Positions 29,748 to 56,913 of a DNA stretch of 64,000 nucleotides are shown here, in pieces. Source of the DNA: Rhodococcus erythropolis NBRC 15567 (GTDB taxonomy: Bacteria > Actinomycetota > Actinomycetes > Mycobacteriales > Mycobacteriaceae). The position numbers and the translations under genes were made by a program. Within the stretch, counting starts at the first letter, position 1; each line of letters begins with the position of its first letter. The notes under the pieces were generated by a model. That model was not told the origin of the DNA. It searched no databases and saw nothing but the letters and a program-made list of their open reading frames with translations. The stretch lies in NCBI RefSeq assembly GCF_001552595.1, contig NZ_BCRM01000001.1:992001-1056000 (forward strand), read 5' to 3'.

Positions 29748-29943
29748 GTCGGTCTCCCTTCTCGTCGCTGCCAGGGTAGAAATCCGTTGTTTCGGGCGCG
29801 TGACACCGGCATGGCCGTCGTGAATCGCATGCGTGAGGGCCGACATTTCGACTGCGATGACGAAGCAGATGTGAGCGCTGCTCAGGGCGACGAACGCGGG
29901 GGTAGCGTTGATTTGTAGTGGTTGGCAGAAAGCGAGTCGGTCG

Positions 29944-32277
29944 ATGGCATCCGTTGTGCGATCAGAAGCCGACCAGCGAGTTGTCGGCAACTTGCCCTTG
30001 GAGTTGACGAGTTTTGTCGGCCGACGGCGTGAGTTGGCCGAAGCCAGAAGATTGTTCGAGTCGTCCCGTTTATTGACGCTCACCGGTATCGGAGGTGTCG
30101 GCAAGACGCGGCTCGCGATCCGGCTTGCGAGTGCGCTCCAGCGGGTGTTCCGAGACGGCGCGTGGTTGGTGGAGTTGGGCGAGCAGACGGATCCAGAACT
30201 CCTCGAGGATTATGTCGCCGTGATTTTGGGGGTGCGGCCGGTGTCCTCGTCGGACCCGCTGCACACTGTGATCGACTACTGCTCCGATCGCAGTCTGCTG
30301 TTGGTACTCGACAACTGCGAACATCTGGTCGATGCCGTCGCTCTGTTTGCCGGTGCGATCCTACGGCGGTGTGCCGGTGTCAAGATCTTGGCGACGAGCA
30401 GAGAATCGTTGGGAATGGGCGGTGAGGTGACGATGCGCGTTCCCTCGCTCACCACACCGCAGCAACAGCCGCGCGAATTCGAGGGACTTGCCCAGTACGA
30501 ATCCGTGTCGTTGTTCACCGAGCGTGCGGCTTCAGTCGTCCCCGGTTTCACCCTCACTGAGGAGAACAAGCGCGCCGTTGCTCATATCTGTCACGACCTG
30601 GATGGACTCCCGCTTCCGATCGAGTTGGCGGCCGCTCGCCTGCGCGGTATGTCGGCGGAGCAGATCATGGATCGGCTCTCGGATCGTTACCGCCTTTTGA
30701 CTTCCGGTGGACGCGACGTACCGAGTCGTCAGCAGACTCTCCGCTTGTCGATCGATTGGAGTTACGACTTGTGCTCGCCTCCGGAGCAGCAGCTGTGGGG
30801 TCGGCTGACAGTATTTTCCGGCGGGTTCGAGCTGGACGCTGCCGAGGGAGTGTGCGGGCAGGATTCGAGTTCGACGGAAGTGCTCGATCTCGTCACTGCG
30901 TTGGTCGAGAAGTCCATCCTCATTCGTGAGGAGATCGACGGCACCGTTCGCTATCACCTGCTCGACCTCCTGCGGGAGTACGGACGAGAGAAGGCCGAGA
31001 TCTCGAACGACTACGTGGAACTTCAACGGCGCCACCGTGATTGGTTCGAAGCGCTGGTTGTTCGTGCGGAAGCCGAGTGGATCAGTGACCGGCAAGCGGC
31101 GTGGATCGCACGGCTGGGTCGTGAACAGCACAACGTCTACGACGCGCTGGAGTTTTCGATTTCCACTACCGGAGAGGCGCGATCTGCGACGCGAATGGTC
31201 GCTGCGTTGTACAGATTCTGGCTTTCTGGTGGATTGCTTGTGCAGGCACGGTATTGGACGGATCGAGCTCTGAATACAGAGGATCGGGAGCTCGACCCGT
31301 TCCGCGTTGATGTCTTGGCCATCGACGCTGTGAATCACGCGATGCAGGGGGAACTCGAACGGGCACAAGCGCTGGTCGACGAGAGTTGGCACCTGGCGAA
31401 TGCCTTGGCGGACGTACGCTCACGCGGTCTCGCGGCATGGGGTGACGGATACGTCGATACGTTCAGAGGCAACTTCGATACCGCTACAGCCAAGTTGGAA
31501 TCCGCGTTGACGCTGTTTCGATTGGACGAAAATCTGCTGCATGTGGTGATCGGCCTGGACACCCTGGGGATCGCGTACTTTCTTTCCGGGGCCCTCGATC
31601 GCTCGGTGGAGTGCAACGAAGAGACTCTCGCGATCACCGTGCCCGCCAACGAAGTCATGTTCCAGGCTTTTGCGTTGGGAACCCTCGGGCTCGTGGGCTG
31701 GCTCCGAGGTGAATTAGATGACGCACGTGATTATTTGACGCGAAGTCTGAGAATTCTCGATGCCCCGATGAACTCGGCGTGGTGTATCGAACCACTGGCG
31801 TGGATTGCTGCAGCGCAACGTGATTGGAAGAATTCCGCGGTTCTGCTCGGCGCGGCAGCCATGTATTGGCAGAAGGTCGGGGGTCGGCTGGCGGGCCTGC
31901 CGGGTTTGTCGCCGCATCACGACACTGCGGCAGAGACTGCTCGTAGGGCTATGGGTAAGAGTGCTTTCGACAAGTCGTTTCGCAACGGATTTGTGATGTC
32001 CGAGAGTGAAGCTGTCGCGTATGCGCTCGACGAGCGTCGCAGTGTTCCGGGTTCATCGTCAACTGAGGCACCTCACCTGACTCGTCGTGAGCAGCAAGTT
32101 GCGGAACTCGTTGCGCGGGGCCTGACCAATCGCGCTATCGCGGAACATCTCGTGATCTCGCTTCGTACGGCTCAGGGTCATGTGGAGCATGTGCTGACCA
32201 AATTGGGTTTCACCTCCAGAGCGCAGATCGCGGCGTGGTTCGTGTCGACCGAGCAGGAGACCGACTCCCGAGGCTGA
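29944..32277 (+). CDS. STAND-ATPase LuxR-type regulator, copy 1
   Basis: 777 residues from ATG 29944. The NB-ARC-like ATPase has Walker A GIGGVGKT at residues 48-55, Walker B LLLVLD near 118-123 and GLPLPIELAAARLR near 230. A helical TPR-like region spans about 390-690. The LuxR helix-turn-helix is at about 710-770 (LTRREQQVAELVARGLTNRAIAEHL). Such proteins oligomerise on binding an inducer. It lacks an N-terminal SARP domain. Copy 2 follows 88 bp later. No dedicated target gene cluster is adjacent, and the inducer is unknown. Confidence 0.88.
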   Translation: MASVVRSEADQRVVGNLPLELTSFVGRRRELAEARRLFESSRLLTLTGIGGVGKTRLAIRLASALQRVFRDGAWLVELGEQTDPELLEDYVAVILGVRPVSSSDPLHTVIDYCSDRSLLLVLDNCEHLVDAVALFAGAILRRCAGVKILATSRESLGMGGEVTMRVPSLTTPQQQPREFEGLAQYESVSLFTERAASVVPGFTLTEENKRAVAHICHDLDGLPLPIELAAARLRGMSAEQIMDRLSDRYRLLTSGGRDVPSRQQTLRLSIDWSYDLCSPPEQQLWGRLTVFSGGFELDAAEGVCGQDSSSTEVLDLVTALVEKSILIREEIDGTVRYHLLDLLREYGREKAEISNDYVELQRRHRDWFEALVVRAEAEWISDRQAAWIARLGREQHNVYDALEFSISTTGEARSATRMVAALYRFWLSGGLLVQARYWTDRALNTEDRELDPFRVDVLAIDAVNHAMQGELERAQALVDESWHLANALADVRSRGLAAWGDGYVDTFRGNFDTATAKLESALTLFRLDENLLHVVIGLDTLGIAYFLSGALDRSVECNEETLAITVPANEVMFQAFALGTLGLVGWLRGELDDARDYLTRSLRILDAPMNSAWCIEPLAWIAAAQRDWKNSAVLLGAAAMYWQKVGGRLAGLPGLSPHHDTAAETARRAMGKSAFDKSFRNGFVMSESEAVAYALDERRSVPGSSSTEAPHLTRREQQVAELVARGLTNRAIAEHLVISLRTAQGHVEHVLTKLGFTSRAQIAAWFVSTEQETDSRG

Positions 32278-32365
32278 GATCGCGGGCAGTGGTGAGCGCT
32301 TCTCGGGTGCAGTTCGCGGGGGTAGCGTTGGTTTTGGAGTGGAATCGCAGAAAGCGAGTCGGTCG

Positions 32366-34726
32366 ATGGCATCCGCTGTGCGTGCAGAAGCCGATCATCG
32401 GGTTGTCGGTAACTTGCCGTTGGAGTTGACGAGTTTTGTCGGTCGGCGGCGTGAGTTGGCCGATGCCAGAAGATTGTTCGAGTCGTCCCGTTTGTTGACG
32501 CTGACCGGCGTCGGGGGCGTGGGCAAGACACGTCTCGCGATTCGGCTTGCGGGTGCGCTGCAGCGGGTGTTCAGCGACGGTACCTGGTTGGTGGAGTTGG
32601 GGGAGTTGTCGGATCCGGATCTGCTCGCGGATTATGTCGCCGTGACTTTGGGGGTGCGGCCGGTTTCGTCGTCTGATCCGCTGCGCGCTTTGATCGAATT
32701 TTGCGCCGATCGGAGTCTGCTGTTGGTGTTCGACAACTGTGAACACCTGGTGGATTCGGTTGCCAGGCTTGCCGGGGCGATCTTGCGTCGGTGTGCTGGT
32801 GTGAAGATTCTGGCGACGTCGCGAGAGTCTCTGGGTGTGGGCGGTGAGGTGGTGATGCGGGTTCCTTCTCTCACTACGCCGGAACTGCGGGGGCCGCGCG
32901 CTTTCGATGGGCTGGCTCGGTACGAGTCTGTTTTGTTGTTCGCAGAAAGAGCTGCGACTGTGGTGCCGGGTTTCGTGTTGACCGAAGGGAACCGGAATGC
33001 CGTTGCCCGTATCTGCCACGATCTGGACGGATTGCCGTTGCCGATCGAGTTGGCTGCTGCTCGGCTGCGATCTATGTCGGCGGAGCAGATCATGTATCGG
33101 CTTTCTGATCGTTACAGCCTTTTGACTTCCGGTGGGCGTGATGTTCCCAGTCGTCAGCAGACCCTGCGATTGTCGATCGATTGGAGTTACGACTTGTGCT
33201 CACCGCGTGAACAACGGTTGTGGGCGAGGCTGTCGGTGTTCTCGGGTGGGTTCGATCTCGATGCTGCCGAGGGTGTTTGCGGGCAGGATTCGAGTTCGAC
33301 GGAAGTGCTCGATCTCGTCACTGCGCTGGTCGAGAAGTCCATCCTCATTCGTGAGGAGATCGACGGCTCAGTCAGATACCACCTTCTCGATCTACTCCGG
33401 GAGTACGGACGAGAGAAGGCCGAGTTCTCGAACGACTACGTGGAACTTCGACGGCGCCACCGTGATTGGTTCGAAGCGCTGGTCGTTCGTGCGGAAGCCG
33501 AGTGGATCAGCGACCAGCAAGCTGCGTGGATCGCAAGGCTGGGTCGTGAACTGCACAACGTCTACGACGCGCTGGAGTTTTCGATCTCGACGCCGGGTCA
33601 GACGCGATCAGCGACGCGAATGGTCGCGGCGCTGTACCGATTCTGGGTTCTCGGCGGTCGGATCGCTTCGGCGCGGCACTGGGCGGATCGAACCCTGAGA
33701 GCTTCCGATGGGGAGCCGGACACTTATCGCGTGGAAATTCTGTGTATCGACGCCGTAGCGCATGGGATACAGGGTGACCTCGTCCGGGCGCGCGGACAGG
33801 TAGAGGAGAGTTGGCGCCTTGCCGAGGTCGTGGGAGATGTACGCTCTCGAGGCTTGGCTGGATGGGCGGACGGATATGTCGACACGTTCAACGGCGAATT
33901 CGACACTGCCGCCAGGAAGTTGGAGGCTGCCGTATCGCTTTTCCAATCAGCTGAGAATCTGGAGCACAAAGTGGCCGGCTTGATTACCCTCGGGCTCGCT
34001 TGCATCTTTACCGGCGCGCTGGAGCGATCGGTGGAGTGTTTCGACGAGTCCCTTGCCATCACCGGACCGCCGCACGAAGTGATGTATCAGGCGTCGGCGC
34101 TTAGCAATCTAGGGCTTGTGGACTGGTTTCGAGGTGACCTCGAGCGCGCACGTGACCATTTGGCGCGAAGTCTGCGGGCCACGGCCGCTTCAATGAACTC
34201 GGCGTGGTGTATCGAACAGTTGGCGTGGATTGCTGCAGCGCAACGTGATTGGAAGCAATCGGCGGTTCTACTCGGCGCTGCGGCGATGTACTGGCAGAAG
34301 GTCGGGAGTCGGCTCGCGGGGCTTCCGATCTTGTCACCCCACCATGACAAGGCGGCAAACGATGCTCAAAAGGCATTGGGTAAGGGTGCTTTCGACAAGC
34401 AGTTTCACCGGGGAATTGTGATGACCGAGGGTGAAGCTGTCGCGTACGCGCTCGACGAGCATCACAGAGTCCCGGACACATCGTCGACCGAGGCGATTCG
34501 ACTTACTCGTCGTGAACTGCAGGTTGCGGAACTGGTTGCGCAGGGCCTGACCAATCGCGCTGTCGCAGAGCATCTCGTCATTTCGCCGCGGACAGCACAG
34601 GGGCACGTGGAGCACGTGCTGACGAAATTGGGTTTCACCTCCAGAGCGCAGATCGCGGCGTGGGTGGTATCGACTGCGCAGGAGCGTGACTCGCGCGAGG
34701 TCAATGGTTCAGCAGATCGGAGCTGA
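32366..34726 (+). CDS. STAND-ATPase LuxR-type regulator, copy 2
   Basis: 786 residues from ATG 32366, with the same architecture as copy 1: Walker A GVGGVGKT near 48, Walker B LLLVFD near 118 (Phe for Leu), C-terminal HTH LTRRELQVAELVAQGLTNRAVAEHL. The ATPase core and the segment after it are nearly the same as in copy 1. The 400-700 helical region differs more, which may mean a different ligand. Its 3' end overlaps the convergent DUF35 gene by 26 bp. Confidence 0.88.
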   Translation: MASAVRAEADHRVVGNLPLELTSFVGRRRELADARRLFESSRLLTLTGVGGVGKTRLAIRLAGALQRVFSDGTWLVELGELSDPDLLADYVAVTLGVRPVSSSDPLRALIEFCADRSLLLVFDNCEHLVDSVARLAGAILRRCAGVKILATSRESLGVGGEVVMRVPSLTTPELRGPRAFDGLARYESVLLFAERAATVVPGFVLTEGNRNAVARICHDLDGLPLPIELAAARLRSMSAEQIMYRLSDRYSLLTSGGRDVPSRQQTLRLSIDWSYDLCSPREQRLWARLSVFSGGFDLDAAEGVCGQDSSSTEVLDLVTALVEKSILIREEIDGSVRYHLLDLLREYGREKAEFSNDYVELRRRHRDWFEALVVRAEAEWISDQQAAWIARLGRELHNVYDALEFSISTPGQTRSATRMVAALYRFWVLGGRIASARHWADRTLRASDGEPDTYRVEILCIDAVAHGIQGDLVRARGQVEESWRLAEVVGDVRSRGLAGWADGYVDTFNGEFDTAARKLEAAVSLFQSAENLEHKVAGLITLGLACIFTGALERSVECFDESLAITGPPHEVMYQASALSNLGLVDWFRGDLERARDHLARSLRATAASMNSAWCIEQLAWIAAAQRDWKQSAVLLGAAAMYWQKVGSRLAGLPILSPHHDKAANDAQKALGKGAFDKQFHRGIVMTEGEAVAYALDEHHRVPDTSSTEAIRLTRRELQVAELVAQGLTNRAVAEHLVISPRTAQGHVEHVLTKLGFTSRAQIAAWVVSTAQERDSREVNGSADRS

Positions 34727-39817: not shown

Positions 39818-40774
39818 ATGCTCGATTTTGTCTACTACCCCGTGTCCGGAATCCTCTGGTTCTGGCACAAGGTCTTTTCACTGATCTCCGGATCACCCGA
39901 CAACGGCGTCGTATGGGCGTTGTCGGTCGTATTTCTGGTCTTCACGCTCAAGGCTTTGCTGTTCAAACCCTTCGTCAAGCAGGTCCGCACCCAACTGGTG
40001 ATGCAGAAGCTGCAACCTCAGATCAAGGCGTTGCAGAAGAAGTATTCGGGTGACCGGCAGAAACTCACTGTCGAGATGGCCAAGCTGCAGAAGGAACACA
40101 ACTACAGTCCGTTGCTCGGCTGTCTGCCGATGCTCGTTCAGGCACCGGTGTTCATCGGCCTTTATCACGTCCTGCGATCGTTCAATCGGACTGGAGCGGC
40201 ATCGCACGTCCCGTTTCTGAGCCCGACCGAACCGATGTCGGTGGCGGACAACGCGAATACGGCCAACTACTTCTTCAGTGCCTCGGACGTGCAGTCGTTT
40301 CTCGACGCCAAACTGTTCGGCGCGCCGTTGTCCGCCATGATTTCGAGTCCGGCAGCGCAACTGGAAGCGTTCGGCGACGTCAGCCGTATCTCCATCATTC
40401 TGGTTGCCGTACCGCTGATGATCTTCGCCGCCGTCGCTACACATTTCACGTCGCGGGCGTCCATCGCGCGCCAAGTGGTCACCGGAACCGTCAACCCTCA
40501 AACAGCGATCATGAACAAGCTCGCATTGTGGGTGTTTCCGGTGGGTGTGATCGCTTTCGGTGCTTTCGCGCCCGTGGCGATCCTGCTGTATTTCGTGAGT
40601 AACAACTGCTGGACGCTGGGACAACAGCATTTGGTCTACGGCCGGATCGCGGCGGAGCAGAAGGAAGCTGAATCGTCGCCGACACCCGGAGTGACTGCGC
40701 CCCCGTCGCCCAGGGTGGCTGCAGCACCGCCGCTGCCGGGTGCAAAGCCGATCCGCGCCAAACGCAAGCGATGA
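39818..40774 (+). CDS. yidC: YidC/Oxa1-family membrane insertase, probable second copy
   Basis: 318 residues. It starts with [20 protein letters not shown], then the YidC core: [24 protein letters not shown] with the coiled cytoplasmic hairpin ([17 protein letters not shown]) and [20 protein letters not shown] near 100. Five helices are expected. The C-terminus is Pro/Ala-rich and ends KPIRAKRKR. It lacks the usual rpmH-rnpA neighbours, so it is likely a paralogue of the main YidC. It shares the plus strand with the small membrane protein upstream, 112 bp away. Confidence 0.92.
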
Positions 40775-42787: not shown

Positions 42788-43208
<421 letters not shown>

Positions 43209-43212
<4 letters not shown>

Positions 43213-43670
43213 GACTTCTTCTTTCCGTCGGAGTGGGCATTGGATGCTTGAAGTGACTCACCGAGACGAGTGAGAACGTCTCGAAGTTCTGTGAGTTCGT
43301 CGTTACTCAGACCAGTGGCGCCTGCGAGCTTGGCCGGGATGTCCTCGGCCTTGCTGCGCAAGGTGGAACCCGCCTCGGTCAGGTGAATCTCGACGCGACG
43401 CTCGTCCGTGGTGAGGCGTCGGCGTTCGATGAATCCCAGACCCTCCAGCCTCTTGAGCAGCGGCGACAGGGTTCCGGTATCGAGATCGAGTGCCTCACAG
43501 ATCTCACGCACGCCCCGGCCGTCTCGTTCCCAGAGTGTCAACAGGACGAGGTACTGGGGATACGTGATTCCCAGGTCGTCGAGCATTGCCCGGTACGCGG
43601 CCGTAGTGGCCCGCGACGCCGAATAGAGGGCGAAGCAGACCTGGCGTTCGAGAGCGAGTGGGTTGGTCAC
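43209..43670 (-). CDS. ohrR: OhrR, MarR-family peroxide sensor
   Basis: 153 residues. [14 protein letters not shown] places the reactive Cys12 exactly as in OhrR sensors, and the winged helix has [19 protein letters not shown] and the wing [12 protein letters not shown] second Cys (58) is in the HTH; there is no C-terminal partner Cys, so it looks like the one-Cys type. It heads the ohrR-ohr-reductase operon and should repress it until oxidised. Confidence 0.94.
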
Positions 43671-43684
43671 GAGAACAACTGTAG

Positions 43685-43707
43685 CGCACAGTTAAGTTGT
43701 GCACAAC
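43685..43707. promoter_or_regulatory. OhrR operator candidate
   Basis: GCGCACAGTTAAGTTGTGCAC (43685-43705) has GCACA and TGTGC arms around a TTAA core, in line with AT-centred OhrR boxes. It overlaps a perfect 12-bp palindrome GTTGTGCACAAC (43696-43707). It lies 15-37 bp upstream of the ohrR start. Confidence 0.65.
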
Positions 43708-43748
43708 AAAGAAGTGTCAAATAGATCCGCGGATGCACAGCCGTCTGG

Positions 43749-45131
43749 CTACGGCGTCGACAGAATCTCGGATACGCACCCGAGGAAGGTGAACACTGCC
43801 TGGGCCGCGGGTGCCGGAAATCGGGTGCGCACTGCCAGCCCGTCGTTGGTGCGCGAAAACCAGAACTGAACGTCGTCGGCGCTCGACACGCGACTGAGTT
43901 GCTGCGGATTGATCGGCGCAGGTTGTGAGTCGCCGGGCCGTGATTCGCGGGGGCGAGATCCACCGGGCATGGTCCGGTAGTCGGCGTAGGACACCGAGAA
44001 GATGTCTCGGCGAGTGGGCGAAACCTCGGGCCCCAAGCTCCTCAACACTTGTCTCGACGACACGGACGACAGTGAAAGTGCCTCGTGGAAAGCGAGATTG
44101 ACTGCCCGAGCAGTGCTGTGAAGATCATCCATGCTCGTCACGGTGATGGGTGCATTGGCCACCAGCCAGCCGAAGGTGTGGTTGTGCCGCGGTTCCCGAC
44201 GCGTGTGAACAGGGAACAGAAGGCGTGTGTCTCGCTTTTCGGTCAATTGTGTTGTGGCCAAACCGATCGACGCAAGAATCGCACCGAACGACGAGTGTCG
44301 ATGATCGGCGCAGTTCTGGTCGAACAGCTCTGCTTCGTCGGCGTCGAGGAGCATTCGGGTGTCTGTGCCCTGGGGCGACATGGTCCCGGCGGGCAGTCCC
44401 AGATCTACGGGAAAATGGGGAGTGTCACCCCCGCAAGCTCGAAGGAAAGACCGCCACCCCGCAATGCGGTGGTCGCCGGGCTCTGGATCCGCGGTTGCCG
44501 ATTCACGGAAGCAGTAGTTGAGGAAACTCCCGGGCTCGGGCAAGAGATCCGACGCGATCGGATTACGGTCCGCCCGCGTGTATTCACGATACAGAGTGCT
44601 GATCTCGGTAATTGCGATGCTCATGGACCAGCCGTCGCAGATGGCATGGTCGAATCCGCAGATCACTGTCGACTGGTCCTCGCGGGTGATGGCCCCGAGA
44701 AAGTAGGCGGGAAACGCAAAAGGATTGCACCATCGATCCAAGCGCTCGCCCAAGAGTTCTCGCACCTGTTCCGGCGTTCGCGCATCCGCCACTGTTTCCT
44801 CACGGAGGCGCAGATCGGCGACATCGGCGACGTCGACGAACAGCGCCGAGGATTCATCCGCTTCTTCGGCCTGGGAGAACGAGCACGACAGGGCGTCGTG
44901 ACGGGACGTCCATTCCTCGAAGCTGGCCCGGAGTGCGTCCGTGTCGATCGGGCCGGGAACGTCGAAAGTGGCAGCGAGCCAAGTCGTATCGCCGCGGGTC
45001 CCGGCAAGATGCAGCTGCTGATTCGAGGTCGGAGGAACCGGATACGTCGATCCGGTGGAGATTTCGCTCGGCGTCCACTGCAGGATGCGGCCCGGCCGTG
45101 CCTCGAATCTGTCGAGAAAGGTGATGTGCAT
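43749..45131 (-). CDS. Stand-alone condensation-domain acyltransferase (PapA-like), gene 3 of 3
   Basis: 460 residues, a single condensation/acyltransferase domain. The active-site HxxxDG is HAICDG at 162-167, preceded by Asp (GFDHAICDG). A later FGWLVANAPI block matches the DFGW-like element near 320. Its ATG (45129-45131) overlaps the stop of the previous gene by one base (TGATG), so it is translationally coupled. No carrier protein, adenylation or PKS module is near. PapA-type enzymes acylate glycolipids such as trehalose or phthiocerol lipids; the substrate here is unknown. Confidence 0.85.
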   Translation of the reverse strand: MHITFLDRFEARPGRILQWTPSEISTGSTYPVPPTSNQQLHLAGTRGDTTWLAATFDVPGPIDTDALRASFEEWTSRHDALSCSFSQAEEADESSALFVDVADVADLRLREETVADARTPEQVRELLGERLDRWCNPFAFPAYFLGAITREDQSTVICGFDHAICDGWSMSIAITEISTLYREYTRADRNPIASDLLPEPGSFLNYCFRESATADPEPGDHRIAGWRSFLRACGGDTPHFPVDLGLPAGTMSPQGTDTRMLLDADEAELFDQNCADHRHSSFGAILASIGLATTQLTEKRDTRLLFPVHTRREPRHNHTFGWLVANAPITVTSMDDLHSTARAVNLAFHEALSLSSVSSRQVLRSLGPEVSPTRRDIFSVSYADYRTMPGGSRPRESRPGDSQPAPINPQQLSRVSSADDVQFWFSRTNDGLAVRTRFPAPAAQAVFTFLGCVSEILSTP

Positions 45132-46603
45132 CAGGCGGTCTCCACTTCCTGACGTGCATCCGCCTGACGAACGACACGGTAGTCACCGGTATCGGCGACC
45201 GTTCTCAGGACGTTGCGGAGGTGTCGAAGGTACCGATCCACCGATATGTGCGCTAGCTCGGTATCGGGAAAACTGACCATCACGTACGTACGGTCTTCCT
45301 TCCGGTTGATCCACATCGACAGATCACCCGTCGTTCCTGGCCCACCGAGTGCGCGCGCTTCGAGTTCGTCGTGGTGCTCGGCACCTGGAATCAGGCGCAT
45401 GTCGATGTACGACACCATCGGCGGGACCGAGGTTCCGCCGATGTCGGATCCGGTCAACTTCGACACCTGGGCGATCACCGAGTGAATGGACACGTCCGCG
45501 AGTCCCTTCACGGCTGCGCGAGCAGCGTGAGCAAGGGGGAGTGCATCGGTGAAGGTGGTGACACCACTCAGCGTGAACGAGACCGGGACGAGATTGATGA
45601 ACCAGCCTTGAGAAAACAGGTATCTCGGATCGGAACGAGTACCGACTGCGTTGAGCGCGAAGTAGTTCGCTCTGTCAGCAACTTCGATCTCGGTGAGGGC
45701 GAGGGCTGCGAAGATCCCCGTGGAGAATCCGACGCCATTGGACTTGCACAGCGCTGCGAACGCGGCTGACTCGTCGCTGTCGAGAACGTCGATATGTGTG
45801 CGGGTCGACCGGGTCTGTTCGCCCTGCGCGACGCCGAGGTCGAGGGGGAACGTCGGGAGTTGTCCGGCGTTGGCGGCGAGAATCGAAATCCATTGCTGCA
45901 CAGGTTCTGCGGCTAGGTCGAGGTTCTTCGCCGCTGCCCGTTCTTCGCCGCTGTACTCGACGTAGCTACCGGGAGAGGGAAGTTGAGCGTCGATGCCGGC
46001 GCTTTCGGCGATGTACAGCGCACGAAGTTCTTCGACGCCCAACATCAGCGACAGGCCGTCGGTGTGCGAGTGATCGACGCCGTAGTAGATGGTGAAACCG
46101 GCGCCGGTGCCGTGCTCGACGGCGCCACTGGTGAACGAAGGCCATTGCAGTGGGCTGGTGTCGCCTGCGAAACTTCGGCTGACATGCTCGCGAACCGCAT
46201 CGGTCGTGTTCAGGGAACCGACGCTGTGCGGCGCGAGTTCGATCGTCGATTCATCCACCACGTGACGGTCGATGACCCCGCTGCCGCCAGGATCTTCGGA
46301 TGGTCTCACCTCGAACCAACTGTGAAGTGTGTTGTGCCGCGAGACAAACGCCTGGACAGCCCGACGCAGTGCCTCCCGATCGAGATCACCGGGCAGAGTG
46401 AACGTGAATCCGATCCACGGTGACCAGTCGACGCCTTGTGCGCGCTTGTGATCGGCGGTACGAATGTGTCCCTCTTGGAGGAACGAGAGAGGTTGGTCGC
46501 TCAGTGGTGCTCGAGATGCTGCCGTCAGGGACTGCTCAGTAGGCCTGAACTCGGTGAGCGTCCCGGCTTTCGGTGCCCAGAGATCGATGGGTGTCATTTC
46601 CAT
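45131..46603 (-). CDS. Stand-alone condensation-domain acyltransferase, gene 2 of 3
   Basis: 490 residues from ATG 46603, which has GAGGAG 6 nt upstream; the open frame reaches 46894 but that part overlaps gene 1. The active site is HSHTDG at 178-183, again preceded by Asp. QGWFINLVPVSF near 330 is the FGW-like block. MVSYIDMRLIPGAEHHDE near 400 closely resembles VLSYMDVRHVPGAEQW in gene 1, so the two are likely paralogues. It ends in a TGATG junction with gene 3. Confidence 0.85.
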   Translation of the reverse strand: MEMTPIDLWAPKAGTLTEFRPTEQSLTAASRAPLSDQPLSFLQEGHIRTADHKRAQGVDWSPWIGFTFTLPGDLDREALRRAVQAFVSRHNTLHSWFEVRPSEDPGGSGVIDRHVVDESTIELAPHSVGSLNTTDAVREHVSRSFAGDTSPLQWPSFTSGAVEHGTGAGFTIYYGVDHSHTDGLSLMLGVEELRALYIAESAGIDAQLPSPGSYVEYSGEERAAAKNLDLAAEPVQQWISILAANAGQLPTFPLDLGVAQGEQTRSTRTHIDVLDSDESAAFAALCKSNGVGFSTGIFAALALTEIEVADRANYFALNAVGTRSDPRYLFSQGWFINLVPVSFTLSGVTTFTDALPLAHAARAAVKGLADVSIHSVIAQVSKLTGSDIGGTSVPPMVSYIDMRLIPGAEHHDELEARALGGPGTTGDLSMWINRKEDRTYVMVSFPDTELAHISVDRYLRHLRNVLRTVADTGDYRVVRQADARQEVETA

Positions 46604-48068
46604 GAGAGTTCTCCTCGATCGGTGCAGCGGTATTGATCGGTACAGCGGTGTTGATCGGTACAGCGGTGTTGGTCGGAGGTGAGCATGTGTCGGTCGAGAA
46701 GGCAAAGTCCTCCATTTCGCGGCGTAGGAGTCCCGCGAACTGATGGATGTGGCGGCTTGTGCGCGCGTTGCCTGGGTGGCGTATGGCCAGATTGAGCCCT
46801 TCGGGAGTCCGTGTGAGCCAGATGTAGACGTCGGTTCCCGAATGATCGCGACTACGAAGGCCTCTGGTCTGCCAGCTCGTCCATTGCTCGGCACCAGGAA
46901 CGTGACGAACGTCCATGTACGAGAGCACGAACGGCAGGTGCTGGGGGGAGTCGATCAGCTCGCACACTTTCGAATACGGCAGGGCCGCTGCGGGGCGGAC
47001 GCGTCGCATCTCCGTGCCGGCAACCTTGGCCAGATCGCTCACGCTTGCTGCGGGGGCAATCGGAATCCTCACCGGCACAACACCGATGAACCATCCCAGC
47101 GATGCGGCCCATCGAAGCTCCGAACGGGTGTGTTGCGGCACCACGACGCGGAATTCGTCTGCACCGGTGAGATCACCGGTCACCTTGGCCGCGCACGCGA
47201 GTATCGCGGCCAGGAATCCTTGGTTGCTGCGCTTGCTCGCTTCTGCCAGGCGTTCGGCTCCCCGGGCGCTCAGAAGCCAGGCGGACAGGCTCTGCTGAGG
47301 GACTCGGCGTCCGGCGACCGGTTCGGGCAGCGCTGGAAAGAGCGGAGCCTCGCCCTGCGCGTAGAACTCGCGCCACGTCTGCACCGCCGGGTGAGAGCAG
47401 TCCGCGTGTCCCACGAGATCTCGTTCCCTGGTGCCGAAGTCGATGTAGCTTCCGGTCTCCGGCGGCGAGGGAGGGCTTCCCTCGCTCGACGAACGGTAGA
47501 TCGTCTGCAGTTCGTGCGCGGTCAACGCCACCGAATATCCGTCCAGCAGAGCATGATCAGCGGCAAAGACCACGGTGAAATGGTTGGGACCTTCAATCGT
47601 CGCGAACTGGTACGCAGGCCACACAAGTGGATCGGTCGACCGGTCGAGCAGTTGCTGCAGATGCGTGAAGACGGACATCGAGGACGCAAGATGTCCGACT
47701 TCGTTACCCAGAATTCGGACGTCCCCGGGACCCGCGGTGCGTCGGACTATCGCTTCGCCCTCCATGGCGACTCGTGTTCGGAGCACTTCGTGGCGATCGA
47801 TCCAGTGATCGAGAGTGGCCGCCCAGATCCTTCGGTCGAGTCGGTCGTGGATGCGAAACGAGGTGCCCAGCCACGACGGAGTGCATCCGTCGTTGTGATG
47901 GTGCGCCTGCCGTTTCGCCTGCTCGGCATGTTTCAAGTGTGCTTCGTGTATGTAGCTGGCGGGACGCTGGTCGACAGGCCACAGTTCGGGCGGATTCACT
48001 GCGGCAGGAGTCCACTCGGTGACGGTCCCAGGAGGTAGGGGATAGTCGGCAAGTTCCGTGAATTCCAT
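46536..48068 (-). CDS. Stand-alone condensation-domain acyltransferase, gene 1 of 3
   Basis: 510 residues from ATG 48068. The active site is HALLDG at 172-177 in AADHALLDGYS. LGWFIGVVPVRIP near 325 is the FGW-like block. After about residue 460 the protein leaves the domain and runs through a repeated NTAVPI segment, encoded by an 18-bp tandem repeat, then 68 bp into gene 2 in another frame. The tail looks non-conserved, so changes in repeat number should be tolerated by the enzyme but alter the overlap with gene 2. The operon promoter candidate is at 48127-48156. Confidence 0.85.
   Translation of the reverse strand: MEFTELADYPLPPGTVTEWTPAAVNPPELWPVDQRPASYIHEAHLKHAEQAKRQAHHHNDGCTPSWLGTSFRIHDRLDRRIWAATLDHWIDRHEVLRTRVAMEGEAIVRRTAGPGDVRILGNEVGHLASSMSVFTHLQQLLDRSTDPLVWPAYQFATIEGPNHFTVVFAADHALLDGYSVALTAHELQTIYRSSSEGSPPSPPETGSYIDFGTRERDLVGHADCSHPAVQTWREFYAQGEAPLFPALPEPVAGRRVPQQSLSAWLLSARGAERLAEASKRSNQGFLAAILACAAKVTGDLTGADEFRVVVPQHTRSELRWAASLGWFIGVVPVRIPIAPAASVSDLAKVAGTEMRRVRPAAALPYSKVCELIDSPQHLPFVLSYMDVRHVPGAEQWTSWQTRGLRSRDHSGTDVYIWLTRTPEGLNLAIRHPGNARTSRHIHQFAGLLRREMEDFAFSTDTCSPPTNTAVPINTAVPINTAAPIEENSHGNDTHRSLGTESRDAHRVQAY
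46617..46670. repeat. 18-bp tandem repeat, three units
   Basis: GATCGGTRCAGCGGTRTT occurs at 46617-46634, 46635-46652 and 46653-46670 with two substitutions in the first unit, and a partial fourth (GGTCGG) follows. It encodes repeated NTAVPI on the minus strand at the end of condensation gene 1. It lies directly upstream of the ribosome site and start of gene 2 (46603). Confidence 0.92.
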
Positions 48069-48126
48069 TGGGAAACCTGATCTCTCGAGATGGCGAAAGG
48101 TGGGGATCGTGAACGGGGCGGATGTT

Positions 48127-48156
48127 TGTAACCGAGAGTGACAGATGATTAGTCAA
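48127..48156 (-). promoter_or_regulatory. Promoter candidate for the condensation-domain operon
   Basis: On the minus strand TTGACT (48156-48151) is followed after 18 bp by GTTACA (48132-48127), about 60 bp before ATG 48068. The 470-bp gap 48069-48539 is AT-rich for this genome and contains no convincing ORF; it holds this and the sthA promoter. Confidence 0.4.
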
Positions 48157-48491
48157 GGCAAGTAGAACGCGACCTGAGGCTCCGCGCAACTGCTTCGGTC
48201 CGGGATGTGACGAGGAACATTCTGCTCGTTATTTCGGACAATTCGAATACTGGACATCCGGTTTACTGCCCTGGTCACCTGTCAGTTGATCGATCAATCA
48301 CTCTGGGGTGAAACAAATTTCAACAGACCGTTGTGAACTCCGTCAGACGGCGAAGAATGTGCGCATGCGAATGTCGGAATATGTTTGTGTGTAGCAATTT
48401 TCGTAAGGGTTTGACTGTATCTCTTTTAATTGCAACAGGGTTCGTGTACAGCCGTCGTGCCCGTTCGGCGCGCGGATTGTTCACCGAGTAT

Positions 48492-48520
48492 TGACATGCT
48501 CGGCATCTGCCGGTCGTATG
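48492..48520 (+). promoter_or_regulatory. Promoter candidate for sthA
   Basis: TTGACA (48492-48497) and TCGTAT (48515-48520) are 17 bp apart and end 20 bp before the sthA ATG, which implies a very short leader. Confidence 0.5.
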
Positions 48521-48539
48521 CAGACGGTATTTGTAAGCG

Positions 48540-49952
48540 ATGACTGATCCGATGGAATACGACCTGGTTGTGATCGGCTCCGGCCCGGGTGGTCAGAAGG
48601 CTGCCATCGCGGCGGCCAAGCTGGGTAAACGGGTAGCGATGGTCGAGAAGGGCAACATGCTCGGGGGAGTGTGCGTCAACACCGGCACCATTCCGTCGAA
48701 GACGTTGCGCGAGGCGGTTCTCTACCTCACCGGGATGAACCAACGCGAACTGTACGGCGCAAGTTACCGCGTCAAGGAGAACACCACTCCGGCCGACCTG
48801 CTGGCGCGAACCCAGCATGTCATCACCAAAGAAATCGAAGTCGTGCGATCTCAGCTCCTGCGTAACCGCGTCGAATTGCTGGTAGGGGTCGGCTCGTTCG
48901 TCGACGAGCACACCATCCTCGTCGAGGACGCCTCGCGCGGAGACAAGATGACGATCACGGCAAAATTCGTTGTGATCGCGACCGGAACGTTGCCTGCCCG
49001 CCCGGCGGGGGTGTCCTTCGACAGTCACCGGGTGCTCGACTCCGACGGAATCCTCGATCTGACCTCCATCCCGACCACCATGGTCGTGGTGGGCGCGGGA
49101 GTGATCGGTATCGAGTACGCGTCGATGTTCGCGGCACTCGGCACCAAGGTCACCGTCGTCGAGAAGAGAACGTCGATGCTGGACTTCTGTGACCCCGAGG
49201 TCATCGAATCGCTTCGGTTCCATTTACGCGATCTGGCGGTCACTTTCCGATTCGGTGAAGAAGTGACGGCCGTCGACGTCGGAGCGAACGGAACACTTAC
49301 GACGCTGCGCAGCGGCAAGCAGATTCCCGCCGAGACCGTGATGTACTCGGCGGGACGGCAAGGCCTCACAGCGCCACTCGCGCTGGAGAACGCCGGGCTC
49401 GAAGCCGACGAACGTGGCCGCATCTACGTCGACGACAATTTCCGCACCAAGGTCGAACACATCTACGCCGTCGGTGACGTCATCGGCTTCCCGGCGTTGG
49501 CGGCGACGTCGATGGATCAAGGTCGACTCGCGGCCTACCACGCCTTCGACGAACCAGGCGCGAAGCTGATGGATCTGCAGCCGATCGGCATCTACTCGAT
49601 TCCCGAGGTGTCGTACGTAGGCGCCACCGAGGTCGATCTGACCAAGGAATCGGTGCCGTACGAGGTCGGGGTTTCCCGATACCGTGAACTCGCGCGCGGG
49701 CAGATCGCAGGCGACACCTACGGGATGCTCAAGATCCTGGTGTCGACGGATGACCTGAAACTGCTCGGCGTTCATATCTTCGGCTCGGGTGCAACGGATC
49801 TCGTGCATATCGGCCAAGCGGTGATGGGGTGCGGCGGGACCGTCGAATACCTTGTCGACGCCGTCTTCAACTATCCGACACTGTCCGAGGCGTACAAGGT
49901 GGCGGCGCTCGACGTCATGAACAAGATCAGGGCTCTCAAGCAATTCCACTAG
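48540..49952 (+). CDS. sthA: Si-specific NAD(P)+ transhydrogenase (soluble)
   Basis: 470 residues of the pyridine nucleotide-disulfide oxidoreductase fold. The FAD site [10 protein letters not shown] is near residue 13, the NAD site [20 protein letters not shown] near 180 and the second FAD block [14 protein letters not shown] near 307. The redox-disulfide region reads [18 protein letters not shown], with one Cys only, as in SthA rather than lipoamide dehydrogenase. It balances NADPH and NADH. ATG 48540 is the start. The dimerisation domain ends in [14 protein letters not shown]. Confidence 0.95.
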
Positions 49953-54029: not shown

Positions 54030-54267
54030 CGGCACGCGGGCATGATATGTCAGATCCCGCAGGTCGCAGCCACTCTCCCGCAAATAAACGTCAATAGTGA
54101 CCGAGCCCACATAATGAGACAAATCGGGCGTATTTGTGAGACGGCCAGTGCTCGCGTGTCGCGGTGATTCTGTCTATGTTGTTCGTTATGGGTGGACAGG
54201 TTGGGAGTTCGATGCTCGAACGAAATCTCGAGTTCGGCGGGGATCGACTGCTCGTTTGTCGGCCATC

Positions 54268-56913
54268 ATGACATCCACTTCGAATCGGTCGCAGCTATCT
54301 CGAGCAAAGCGAAATCCTCGAGGAAGGGGCACGCTGCAAAGACGGCTCGCCGGGCGTGGAGCCACGGCGATTCGTCCTCGTCTGCTCGGGTTGATGGAAC
54401 GCTCGGCGGGATTGACGGTCATCGATTCGCCGCGTGGGTTCGGGAAGACGGACCTCGCCGCGTTGTGGCTCACGACTCTCGGGCACATGCCCATCAGACC
54501 AGTTGTCTGGGTGCCGGCGCCATCGAATCGGATGACCCCCCTCGAGTACTGGAACACTGCGCTCGCAGTGATTCAAGATTCTCTGGAATCACTCGAGGCC
54601 CCGCCACGAATGCGCGAGGATCCGGTGGGGGCAATCGAATCACTACTCGACTCGTCGCCCACTCCATTCGTGTTGGTGTTCAACCGCATCGACCTGGTTG
54701 AGGGTGACGAGGTGGGACGCCGAATCGTGGATCTGATCGTGCGGCTTCCCGGATTGAAAGTAATCGTCACGCTGCAGGATCGGTCTGCGACGGACTTACT
54801 CGAGGACGTCCGCGTGGACGAGTACCTGTGCGCGAACGACCTCAGGTACACGCTCGACGAGTCCACAGTTCTGTTCGCGGAGGCAGGGATCCACCTTCCC
54901 TCGGGCATCGTCCATTCGATCTGCGAGCGTGTTGCCGGCGTTCCTGTGCTGATGAAGGTTGCTCTGAGTGCGGTTGCGGGGCTGAGTGAACCGAGTCGTG
55001 GGCGCGAACGCGTTCAGCAGCGAGTGGACCAAGCGATCCACGCGTACGTCAGTCGGACCGCTCCTCGATCGGGCAAGTCGCTCGAGTTGTTCGACTTCGC
55101 GACTACGATCGCCGCCGCCCGCACCGTCACACCAGAGATCGCTCGTGTCTTGTCCGACGATCTTGACGTGGAGGGCAAACTGGACTTGCTCGAGTCTTTC
55201 GGTCTGATCTTTCGGGACGGTCTCGAGGGAAAAGCATCCTGGTACTTTGCGCCGTCAGTTCGACTGGCATTCATGCAGATACGGACCGAACAAGGGGATG
55301 GATTCGACGATCCCTTCCAGGTTCTCGTCGATCACGCTCTCGGGACTTCGGATATAGCCGGTGCCGTTCACTACGCCTTGGACGGACGCCATTGGACCAG
55401 GGTGCTCGACATACTCGAGCGTCACTGGGCCGATCTTCTGGTCGATCACACCGGATTGGTCCGGACTGCGTTGCAATCCATACCCGGCGACGTGCTCAGT
55501 TCGAACTCTTCGATTCTGGTGGGCCGTGACCTGCTCGAATCACGCCTGCGGCCGCAGTTGGTCAACGGCGATTCGTTGCCGACGGAACCGGCGGAATTGC
55601 GTGCGATAGGTGGTAGTTCGCATGCGCACAGCTTGTTGAACGTCGGGACGGTCCAATCGGTTGTGCTGAGAACATCCGGTAAGTACCAACGCTCTACCGA
55701 GATCACGCGCAAGTTGGCTCACGTCGTGTACGGACTCGGTGACGAGTCGTTGGGCGCGTTGGGGTCTCAACTGCCCGCCCTGCGCCTGATCTGGGGTGTT
55801 TCGCATCAACTGACCGGTGACCTCGGTGATGCCGCGGTGGAATTGCGACTCGCCTATCAGGGTGCGATGGAACACGGTCCGGAGTTCGTCCTGCGGCACG
55901 CCGCTGGCAATGCCGCGCTCAACTCCGCGCTGATCGGGGACGTCGCGCACGCGACAGACTGGCTTCACCTCGAAAGCACACACCCGGACGTTTCGGGATG
56001 GTTGGGACCGCCCTCGCATATGGGGGGAGCGATCGCGCGGGCACTGGTGGCGTGCGATCGCGTGGACCTGAATGCCGGCGCTGCCGCGATGGACGCGCTC
56101 GCCGAGATCACACCGCCGGGCGACCTGTGGGCGTTCGCGGCCTACACTTACACCAGATTCGCACTGCTGCAATCGGATCCGTTCTCGGGGCTGATTTCGC
56201 TCCAGCGCGCAGTGGCAACGCACGGGCACGTGAATCCGTGTGAACGATCACTCGGTGACGCACTTCTCGCCGCGGCGCGTATCGATCTTCTGTTGGCGTC
56301 CGGGGAGGGTACCAAGGCGCTGGAGGAATCAGTCGCTGCGTCACATACGTTTGCTGTTGTCACGGTTTCTGTCGCTCGTGCGCATCTCCTGACGGGGGCT
56401 CCGTCACAGGCATTGGAATTGTGTCGCGAAATCGACTGGAGCGAGCAGTATCTCACGAGGTTTCGGCTCGAGTCCCTGCTGATCGAATGCGCTGCGCTGT
56501 GCGAACTGGGGAGAATCCCCGCTGCCGCCAGTCCGTGGGAGGAGGCTCGCGGACTGCTCGAAACCTCAGGTGTCCTGTCGGCGCTGGCGACCATATCGCG
56601 TGATCTGATCAGGCAACTGGAAGAGCGGGCCGAGGGCCCGAGCAGTGCCGTCGCAACCTTTCTCGAATCCGAAGTGCCGCAGATGTATCCGGCGGCTATC
56701 GTTCAAGTCCAATTGACGAAGCGGGAGATGGACGTTCTCGTGGAACTGGGTCTCGGCATTCCGATCGGCGAGATAGCGCGAAAGTTGTTCGTATCCAACA
56801 ACACATTGAAGAGTCACCTGCGAGCCCTGTATCGCAAACTCGGTGCGCATTCCCGCGAAGAGGCCGTCGCGGCAGCGCACCGACACAACCTCCTCGGCAG
56901 TGGGCAGGACTGA
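54268..56913 (+). CDS. MalT-like LuxR-family ATPase regulator
   Basis: 881 residues from ATG 54268; the frame opens at 54136 but without a ribosome site. A P-loop reads DSPRGFGKTD near residue 53 (Ser for the first Gly of Walker A), and VLVFNRIDLVEGD near 135 is the Walker B region. A long helical repeat domain follows (about 350-800). The LuxR HTH is at the end (LTKREMDVLVELGLGIPIGE, then KLFVSNNTLKSHLRALYRKL). It belongs to the large ATP-binding LuxR (LAL) group. The inducer and targets are unknown. Confidence 0.87.
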   Translation: MTSTSNRSQLSRAKRNPRGRGTLQRRLAGRGATAIRPRLLGLMERSAGLTVIDSPRGFGKTDLAALWLTTLGHMPIRPVVWVPAPSNRMTPLEYWNTALAVIQDSLESLEAPPRMREDPVGAIESLLDSSPTPFVLVFNRIDLVEGDEVGRRIVDLIVRLPGLKVIVTLQDRSATDLLEDVRVDEYLCANDLRYTLDESTVLFAEAGIHLPSGIVHSICERVAGVPVLMKVALSAVAGLSEPSRGRERVQQRVDQAIHAYVSRTAPRSGKSLELFDFATTIAAARTVTPEIARVLSDDLDVEGKLDLLESFGLIFRDGLEGKASWYFAPSVRLAFMQIRTEQGDGFDDPFQVLVDHALGTSDIAGAVHYALDGRHWTRVLDILERHWADLLVDHTGLVRTALQSIPGDVLSSNSSILVGRDLLESRLRPQLVNGDSLPTEPAELRAIGGSSHAHSLLNVGTVQSVVLRTSGKYQRSTEITRKLAHVVYGLGDESLGALGSQLPALRLIWGVSHQLTGDLGDAAVELRLAYQGAMEHGPEFVLRHAAGNAALNSALIGDVAHATDWLHLESTHPDVSGWLGPPSHMGGAIARALVACDRVDLNAGAAAMDALAEITPPGDLWAFAAYTYTRFALLQSDPFSGLISLQRAVATHGHVNPCERSLGDALLAAARIDLLLASGEGTKALEESVAASHTFAVVTVSVARAHLLTGAPSQALELCREIDWSEQYLTRFRLESLLIECAALCELGRIPAAASPWEEARGLLETSGVLSALATISRDLIRQLEERAEGPSSAVATFLESEVPQMYPAAIVQVQLTKREMDVLVELGLGIPIGEIARKLFVSNNTLKSHLRALYRKLGAHSREEAVAAAHRHNLLGSGQD

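Follow-up and report, generated by a model that had tools for sequence, protein, structure and literature searches.

Three PapA2-like acyltransferases encoded without a polyketide synthase in Rhodococcus erythropolis: a candidate set for the acylation of a sugar

We describe a minus-strand operon of three stand-alone condensation-domain genes in a 64,000-nucleotide stretch of Rhodococcus erythropolis NBRC 15567 (contig NZ_BCRM01000001.1, positions 992,001 to 1,056,000; this whole stretch is called the window). The operon encodes one member each of three groups, here named gamma, alpha and beta, which on phylogenetic grounds are three old subfamilies. On balance, we consider that the three proteins would constitute a polyketide synthase (PKS)-free set acylating several positions of one sugar, the acceptor being most likely trehalose or another small glycoside. 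The genes of the trio, in order of transcription, are:

46536..48068, minus strand: gamma-type PapA2-like acyltransferase, 510 aa, first gene of the operon; DHALLDG; PapA2 (6aef) is the top match, E 1e-27
45131..46603, minus strand: alpha-type PapA2-like acyltransferase, 490 aa, middle gene; DHSHTDG; PapA2 at E 3.4e-50; GAGGAG 5' of the ATG
43749..45131, minus strand: beta-type PapA2-like acyltransferase, 460 aa, last gene; DHAICDG; PapA2 is the top match, E 5.1e-21

Enzyme family and assembly-line partners

The three open reading frames (ORFs) are judged to be genuine genes and not chance frames, because four other genomes encode the three proteins at 90-96% identity (92-96% for gamma, in the four others with a trio of the window type). 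PF00668 (Condensation) is the sole domain in each protein, scoring 85.2 bits in gamma, 52.1 in alpha and 65.5 in beta (Pfam cut-off 30.6), and the three domains with DHxxxDG that a preliminary description of this DNA had noticed are thus confirmed; no further PF00668 match occurs in the window. Among solved structures, the trehalose-2-sulfate acyltransferase PapA2 (6aef) ranks first for gamma, alpha and beta, and it is the only match of alpha at E <= 0.001. Scores fall far short of the NCBIfam model for PapA5 (18.2 and 12.6 bits versus 396), hence the proteins are not PapA5, and the WS_DGAT models (wax ester synthase/DGAT) give no match up to E 1 in the window trio; a true wax ester synthase/DGAT on contig C2 of the same genome matches the model at 1e-77 and PF00668 weakly. 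An identity as non-ribosomal peptide synthetase (NRPS) condensation domains was rejected, as these are single-domain proteins of 460-510 aa and no AMP-binding or carrier match was obtained in 43 window proteins. Of the features of PapA-type enzymes, a single condensation domain with HxxxD and a closer relation to PapA than to NRPS domains were found and a PKS partner was not; since no PKS was found nearby, the proteins are named PapA2-like, and not PKS-associated.

The histidine and aspartate of HxxxD are invariant in 192 of 192 distinct sequences (taken from 217 rows with a length of 400 aa or more), and both catalytic residues are intact in the window trio, in which all three proteins also keep the glycine of HxxxDG. 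Degenerate active sites, named beforehand as a sign against a self-contained system, were therefore not found.

The Pfam scans of the window, covering 43 proteins, a subset of its ORFs, gave no match to the AMP-binding, carrier-protein, ketoacyl-synthase or MMPL models, in agreement with the earlier remark that no assembly line accompanies the operon. Likewise, 62 partly redundant loci that hold all three subfamilies yielded no recognised PKS or NRPS, so that the homologues do not always sit in NRPS/PKS clusters. These loci, taken from samples that were picked and not random, comprise 60 (the window plus stretches of 9.6-21 kb, with some genomes fetched twice) and two among 20 further alpha-match loci, one of which (L168) is the same record as L092. 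Coding-like frames of at least 900 aa in the 60 loci encode LuxR regulators, a UvrD-type nuclease, DNA polymerase III, RNA polymerase, an acyl-CoA dehydrogenase, a pyruvate-ferredoxin-type protein, a glycosyltransferase frame and, in Saccharopolyspora (L099), one MMPL; for L070, the large frame was assigned from its synteny with that of the window. None of the 60 loci was matched by a ketosynthase probe, although the probe misses some PKS-size frames, as became apparent from the further alpha-match loci. Two of those 20 are trios without a PKS-size gene and 18 hold alpha without beta and gamma; five of the 18 (L151, L152, L163, L165 and L167) contain a frame of 2,123-2,334 aa, and these are the classical PapA-PKS pairing, the probe matching four of the five frames. 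The contrast in PKS-size genes, 0/62 for trios versus 5/18 for lone alphas, gives a Fisher p of 0.0004 (0.01 with 24 trio loci, a rough estimate of the independent ones). The lack of a PKS hence goes with the trio, yet 13 lone alphas are likewise without one.

Two diverged sets in one genome and their recurrence

A genome-wide search with PF00668 returned 75 matches, most of them in frames longer than 1,000 aa. Strong matches in frames of 477-607 aa correspond to six proteins, three in the window and three on contig C6. The latter, the core trio, are arranged as a divergent MFS exporter gene, alpha, beta, a rhodanese gene (sseA), SufE, gamma and a biotin carboxylase gene (accA3), the names sseA and accA3 being given from Pfam domains. 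Window and core proteins form reciprocal best pairs with 42% (gamma), 39% (alpha) and 35% (beta) identity. The active site of alpha reads HSHTDG in the window versus HAHSDM in the core copy, the motif of core Rhodococcus alphas being mostly HAHTDM or HAHSDM. The core site of 14 genomes of the genus holds alpha, beta and gamma in 12 and gamma only in two. The core beta gene of R. rhodnii falls into two reading frames (L066, 9854-11613; L106, 8524-10283), owing to a sequencing fault or a real break.

Within the genus, the gamma query or a paralogue was matched in 27 of 28 genomes at E <= 1e-20. The window-type trio occurs in five of the 28 (G000, G001, G011, G012 and G022), and R. opacus-type genomes have no window trio.

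The three subfamilies were resolved as three clades, matching the labels, in a tree of 99 proteins (29 rows of beta, 31 of alpha and 39 of gamma, each of at least 400 aa, from 34 chosen loci out of 80 with matches). In single-subfamily trees the window gamma groups with Nocardia (96/98), as does the window beta (100/100); the window alpha groups with Flexivirga (96/91) and then with Nocardia (97/97), a grouping of window and Nocardia alone not being rejected (p 0.127). A sister relation of window and Rhodococcus core proteins, a grouping named for testing after the first tree had been seen, was rejected for gamma (p-AU, from the approximately unbiased test, 0.0051), beta (1.6e-11) and alpha (0.0033). 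This result bears on the idea of the window trio as a spare copy of the core one, yielding the same product, perhaps under other conditions. The presence of the same three subfamilies in one genome as reciprocal best pairs would fit a spare copy, but the rejected sister relation, the low identity of the pairs and the different active sites of the two alphas make it unlikely.

Over 20 trios, the pairwise protein distances of the three subfamilies are correlated (r 0.86, 0.77 and 0.77; 0 of 5000 permutations in each case); these trios are what remained of 23 after three near-duplicates were dropped, and one of them, L058, is a core set. Shared species history adds to this correlation.

One-of-each sets recur in Nocardia, in other genera of the family and in a few more distant actinobacteria. 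The search for the three-gene order that had been proposed for this operon was run on 38 named loci from an alpha-profile scan, which used two short patterns of limited recall, with subfamilies assigned by hidden Markov models. The gamma-alpha-beta order of the window appears in 13 of them (three window-type Rhodococcus, nine Nocardia loci from eight species and one Saccharopolyspora), the core order alpha-beta...gamma in 14 (Rhodococcus and Prescottella) and gamma-alpha in six (two Pseudonocardia, three Streptomyces and one Amycolatopsis); the rest are alpha-beta (one), alpha alone (two) and alpha with opposite-strand beta and gamma (two, in Flexivirga). Among 20 stretches of family genomes chosen from the gamma-query matches, the window order was present in 11 (L107, L108, L109, L112, where it occurs twice, L113, L115, L116, L118, L119, L125 and L126), a trio in a different arrangement in three (L110, L114 and L123) and gamma alone in six. 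Homologues of sseA, sufE and accA3 accompany the set in L108, L113, L114, L115, L116 and L126, among others. Alpha-type matches (E <= 1e-60) come from 176 of the 401 family genomes and represent 13 of the 30 genera, and a gamma-query match at 1e-25 was obtained in 106 of 151, a query that also picks up alpha and beta.

Proposed acylation of one sugar and competing explanations

According to the reading that we favour, the operon would yield three PapA2-like O-acyltransferases, one of each subfamily, which would esterify different hydroxyls of one sugar acceptor and so give a polyacylated sugar lipid. The acyl donors would be ordinary acyl-CoAs from fatty-acid metabolism and alkane oxidation, and for this reason no PKS or carrier protein would be needed beside the genes. 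The CoA donors, the sugar acceptor, its sharing by the three enzymes, the order of the steps and the product are what we infer. The finding of three different PapA-like acyltransferases with no PKS partner is compatible with the stepwise acylation of one sugar that had been suggested in the preliminary description. In the passages seen of the respective papers, PapA3 adds acyl groups to trehalose at positions 2 and 3, one after the other (PMC4183827), PapA2 docks trehalose-2-sulfate and palmitoyl-CoA (PMC6996325), and the chains in the succinoyl trehalose lipids of R. erythropolis SD-74 match the fed alkane in length (PMC7502451), as expected of acyl-CoA donors without a PKS. EryCIII-type glycosyltransferases adjoin the trios in L072, L107, L113, L125 and L126, and exporters lie near trios (MFS at core loci; ABC parts in L072, L113 and L125); these neighbours point to a sugar product.

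The two sets of this genome would comprise one that is nearly general in the genus, by sseA-sufE-accA3-like genes, and a second, anciently diverged one in the erythropolis/qingshengii lineage. Given this divergence, two acyl sugars or two acyl patterns are likely. More speculatively, the trios might represent an old actinobacterial PKS-free module of three co-evolving, position-specific acyltransferases that build polyacyl sugars directly out of acyl-CoA, in which case the R. erythropolis lineage would have two modules and two acyl-sugar families. If so, three fatty acylations and one succinylation would account for the rhodococcal succinoyl trehalose tetraesters, useful surfactants whose genetic basis is called poorly understood in the part consulted of PMC8396431. 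Since an erythropolis-type genome has only six strong condensation enzymes of the stand-alone kind, in two trios with one of each subfamily, simple position-by-position tests are within reach.

Several observations weigh against the acylation of one sugar by the whole trio. The glycine after HxxxD is kept in only 124 of the 192 sequences (alpha 36/61, beta 30/57, gamma 58/74). In G015 (L064) and G023 (L065) gamma persists by accA3 without alpha, beta or the MFS gene, so not every gamma needs the other two, and this lone gamma may serve a separate function. Genes resembling acyl-CoA ligases occur in Nocardia (L092), about 4 kb from gamma, and in Flexivirga (L072), about 2 kb from alpha. The neighbourhood of the trio showed no trehalose gene, and the glycosyltransferases in other genera may indicate an acceptor that is another glycoside and not trehalose. 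Finally, TlsA of Rhodococcus sp. SD-74 appears in the passages seen of PMC8396431 as a putative acyltransferase said to acylate trehalose, to which the papA genes of Rhodococcus sp. I2R are closest there. The printed E-values of TlsA against I2R (8e-70 to 8e-30) best fit the core alpha among our six proteins, an indirect and weak comparison through two proxy genomes. This profile faintly hints that succinoyl trehalose lipid is the product of the core trio, which would leave the window trio without a product.

Two further explanations bear on the acceptor. The three co-transcribed enzymes might act on different acceptors and not be steps of one pathway, as could be imagined from the gamma found alone by accA3 and from alpha standing without beta and gamma in 18 of the 20 further alpha loci; the overlap of the genes, the recurrence of one-of-each sets in several orders and the correlated divergence of the proteins render this improbable. 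We also think it doubtful that the enzymes serve in trans, as tailoring acyltransferases for a glycolipid or peptide whose genes lie elsewhere in the genome, for instance an NRPS product. The genome is indeed rich in NRPS condensation domains, as the many PF00668 matches in long frames attest, and glycosyltransferases adjoin trios in other genera, but the best solved match is PapA2 and no NRPS domain, and no NRPS-size gene was recognised in the 62 trio loci.

Gene arrangement, genomic site and known systems

The tight minus-strand overlap noted beforehand is real at both junctions: gamma and alpha overlap by 68 bp (46536-46603), and alpha and beta meet in TGATG at 45131. The start of alpha is likely the ATG at 46603, because GAGGAG lies directly upstream and both are kept in four aligned relatives; given this conservation, a longer GTG start (587 aa) is dispensable. 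Two further features belong to the operon:

46617..46676, minus strand: 18-bp tandem repeat, 3.3 copies, at the 3' end of gamma immediately before the alpha start
48069..48539, no strand: intergenic stretch between the operon and a divergent SthA-like gene; putative, probable promoter region

The repeat unit is present once in each of four aligned relatives versus 3.3 copies in the window and is thus strain-variable; its copy number could affect the coupling of gamma and alpha. A 12-bp palindrome, TTGATCGATCAA, lies upstream of the operon at 48286-48297, but it was rejected as a shared operator, being intact in three of five genomes only. A scan of 43000-49000 gave no match to a sigma-70-like promoter. 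The trio has a GC content of 61-63% and 70-72% at third codon positions (GC3), inside or close to the values of its neighbours, and foreign base composition was on this ground rejected as a sign of recent transfer.

In all five window-type genomes the trio sits between a MarR gene and the SthA-like gene. These two genes are adjacent in G017 and G002, where the site is without the trio, and in G015, G021 and G023 the SthA-like gene is also missing. As the SthA-like gene (48540-49952) occurs in only seven of the 28 genomes at E <= 1e-100, the stretch by MarR varies even where there is no trio. The MarR-OsmC-ADH genes (43209-43740) persist at sites that have no trio and hence form a separate unit, which resembles an organic-hydroperoxide ohrR-ohr pair. 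A palindromic stretch, TTGTGCACAA, stands upstream of MarR and is similar in trio-less relatives. The window carries a non-canonical second YidC gene (39818-40774), some 3 kb distant from the trio. A YidC homologue adjoins the trio in nine of nine Nocardia loci and is the weaker of two copies in the six Nocardia genomes searched; the unrooted tree of these and the window copies is compatible with a shared or a separate origin. The window also contains three large LuxR-type regulators of 925, 789 and 795 aa (54136-56913 and 29908-34726).

The impression of a peculiar, self-contained unit given in the preliminary description did not hold: the arrangement is widespread in the family, a second copy exists in the same genome, and rhodococcal papA genes or clusters have been printed before as annotations in the parts seen of PMC8396431 and PMC9229178. 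The exporter, glycosyltransferase and acyl-CoA-ligase-like genes a few kb away in other genera also make 'self-contained' too strong a term. In the portions seen of the open-licence PMC literature we found no description of the three-subfamily set. A papA cluster was not found in the passages of a Gordonia biosurfactant paper, the terms acyltransferase, papA, tlsA and gene cluster were all absent from a paper on marine Rhodococcus SP1d, and 'papA' and 'trehalose' from the main text of a Rhodococcus metabolite survey (PMC5550956). The trehangelin enzymes were dropped as a lead, the paper concerning angelyl-CoA.

The closest printed parallel is contig 9 of Rhodococcus sp. I2R, a strain that makes new succinic trehalose esters, with three papA3 genes and one papA1 in the excerpts of PMC8396431. 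The lengths printed there (1461, 1431, 1404, a 1.5-kb gap and 1488) fit gamma-alpha-beta, sseA-sufE and a second gamma as in L107 and L108. The I2R cluster, a printed annotation compared by lengths and spacing, appears to be accA3-linked, unlike the window trio. For R. opacus S8, the passages of PMC9229178 list two copies of papA2 and one papA3 as standard rhodococcal surfactant genes, a number equal to one core trio; order and subfamilies are absent from these passages. The PapA2, PapA1 and PapA3 proteins of Mycobacterium tuberculosis, of sulfolipid and acyltrehalose synthesis, share the stand-alone condensation fold of the trio. The mycobacterial genes act with Pks, FadD and MmpL partners (PMC4183827, in the part seen), whereas the trio has none recognised nearby, and an enzyme family named for its PKS partners is thus commonly found in sets without one. 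Compared with PapA1-PapA3, the trio stands out as three subfamilies gathered in one operon.

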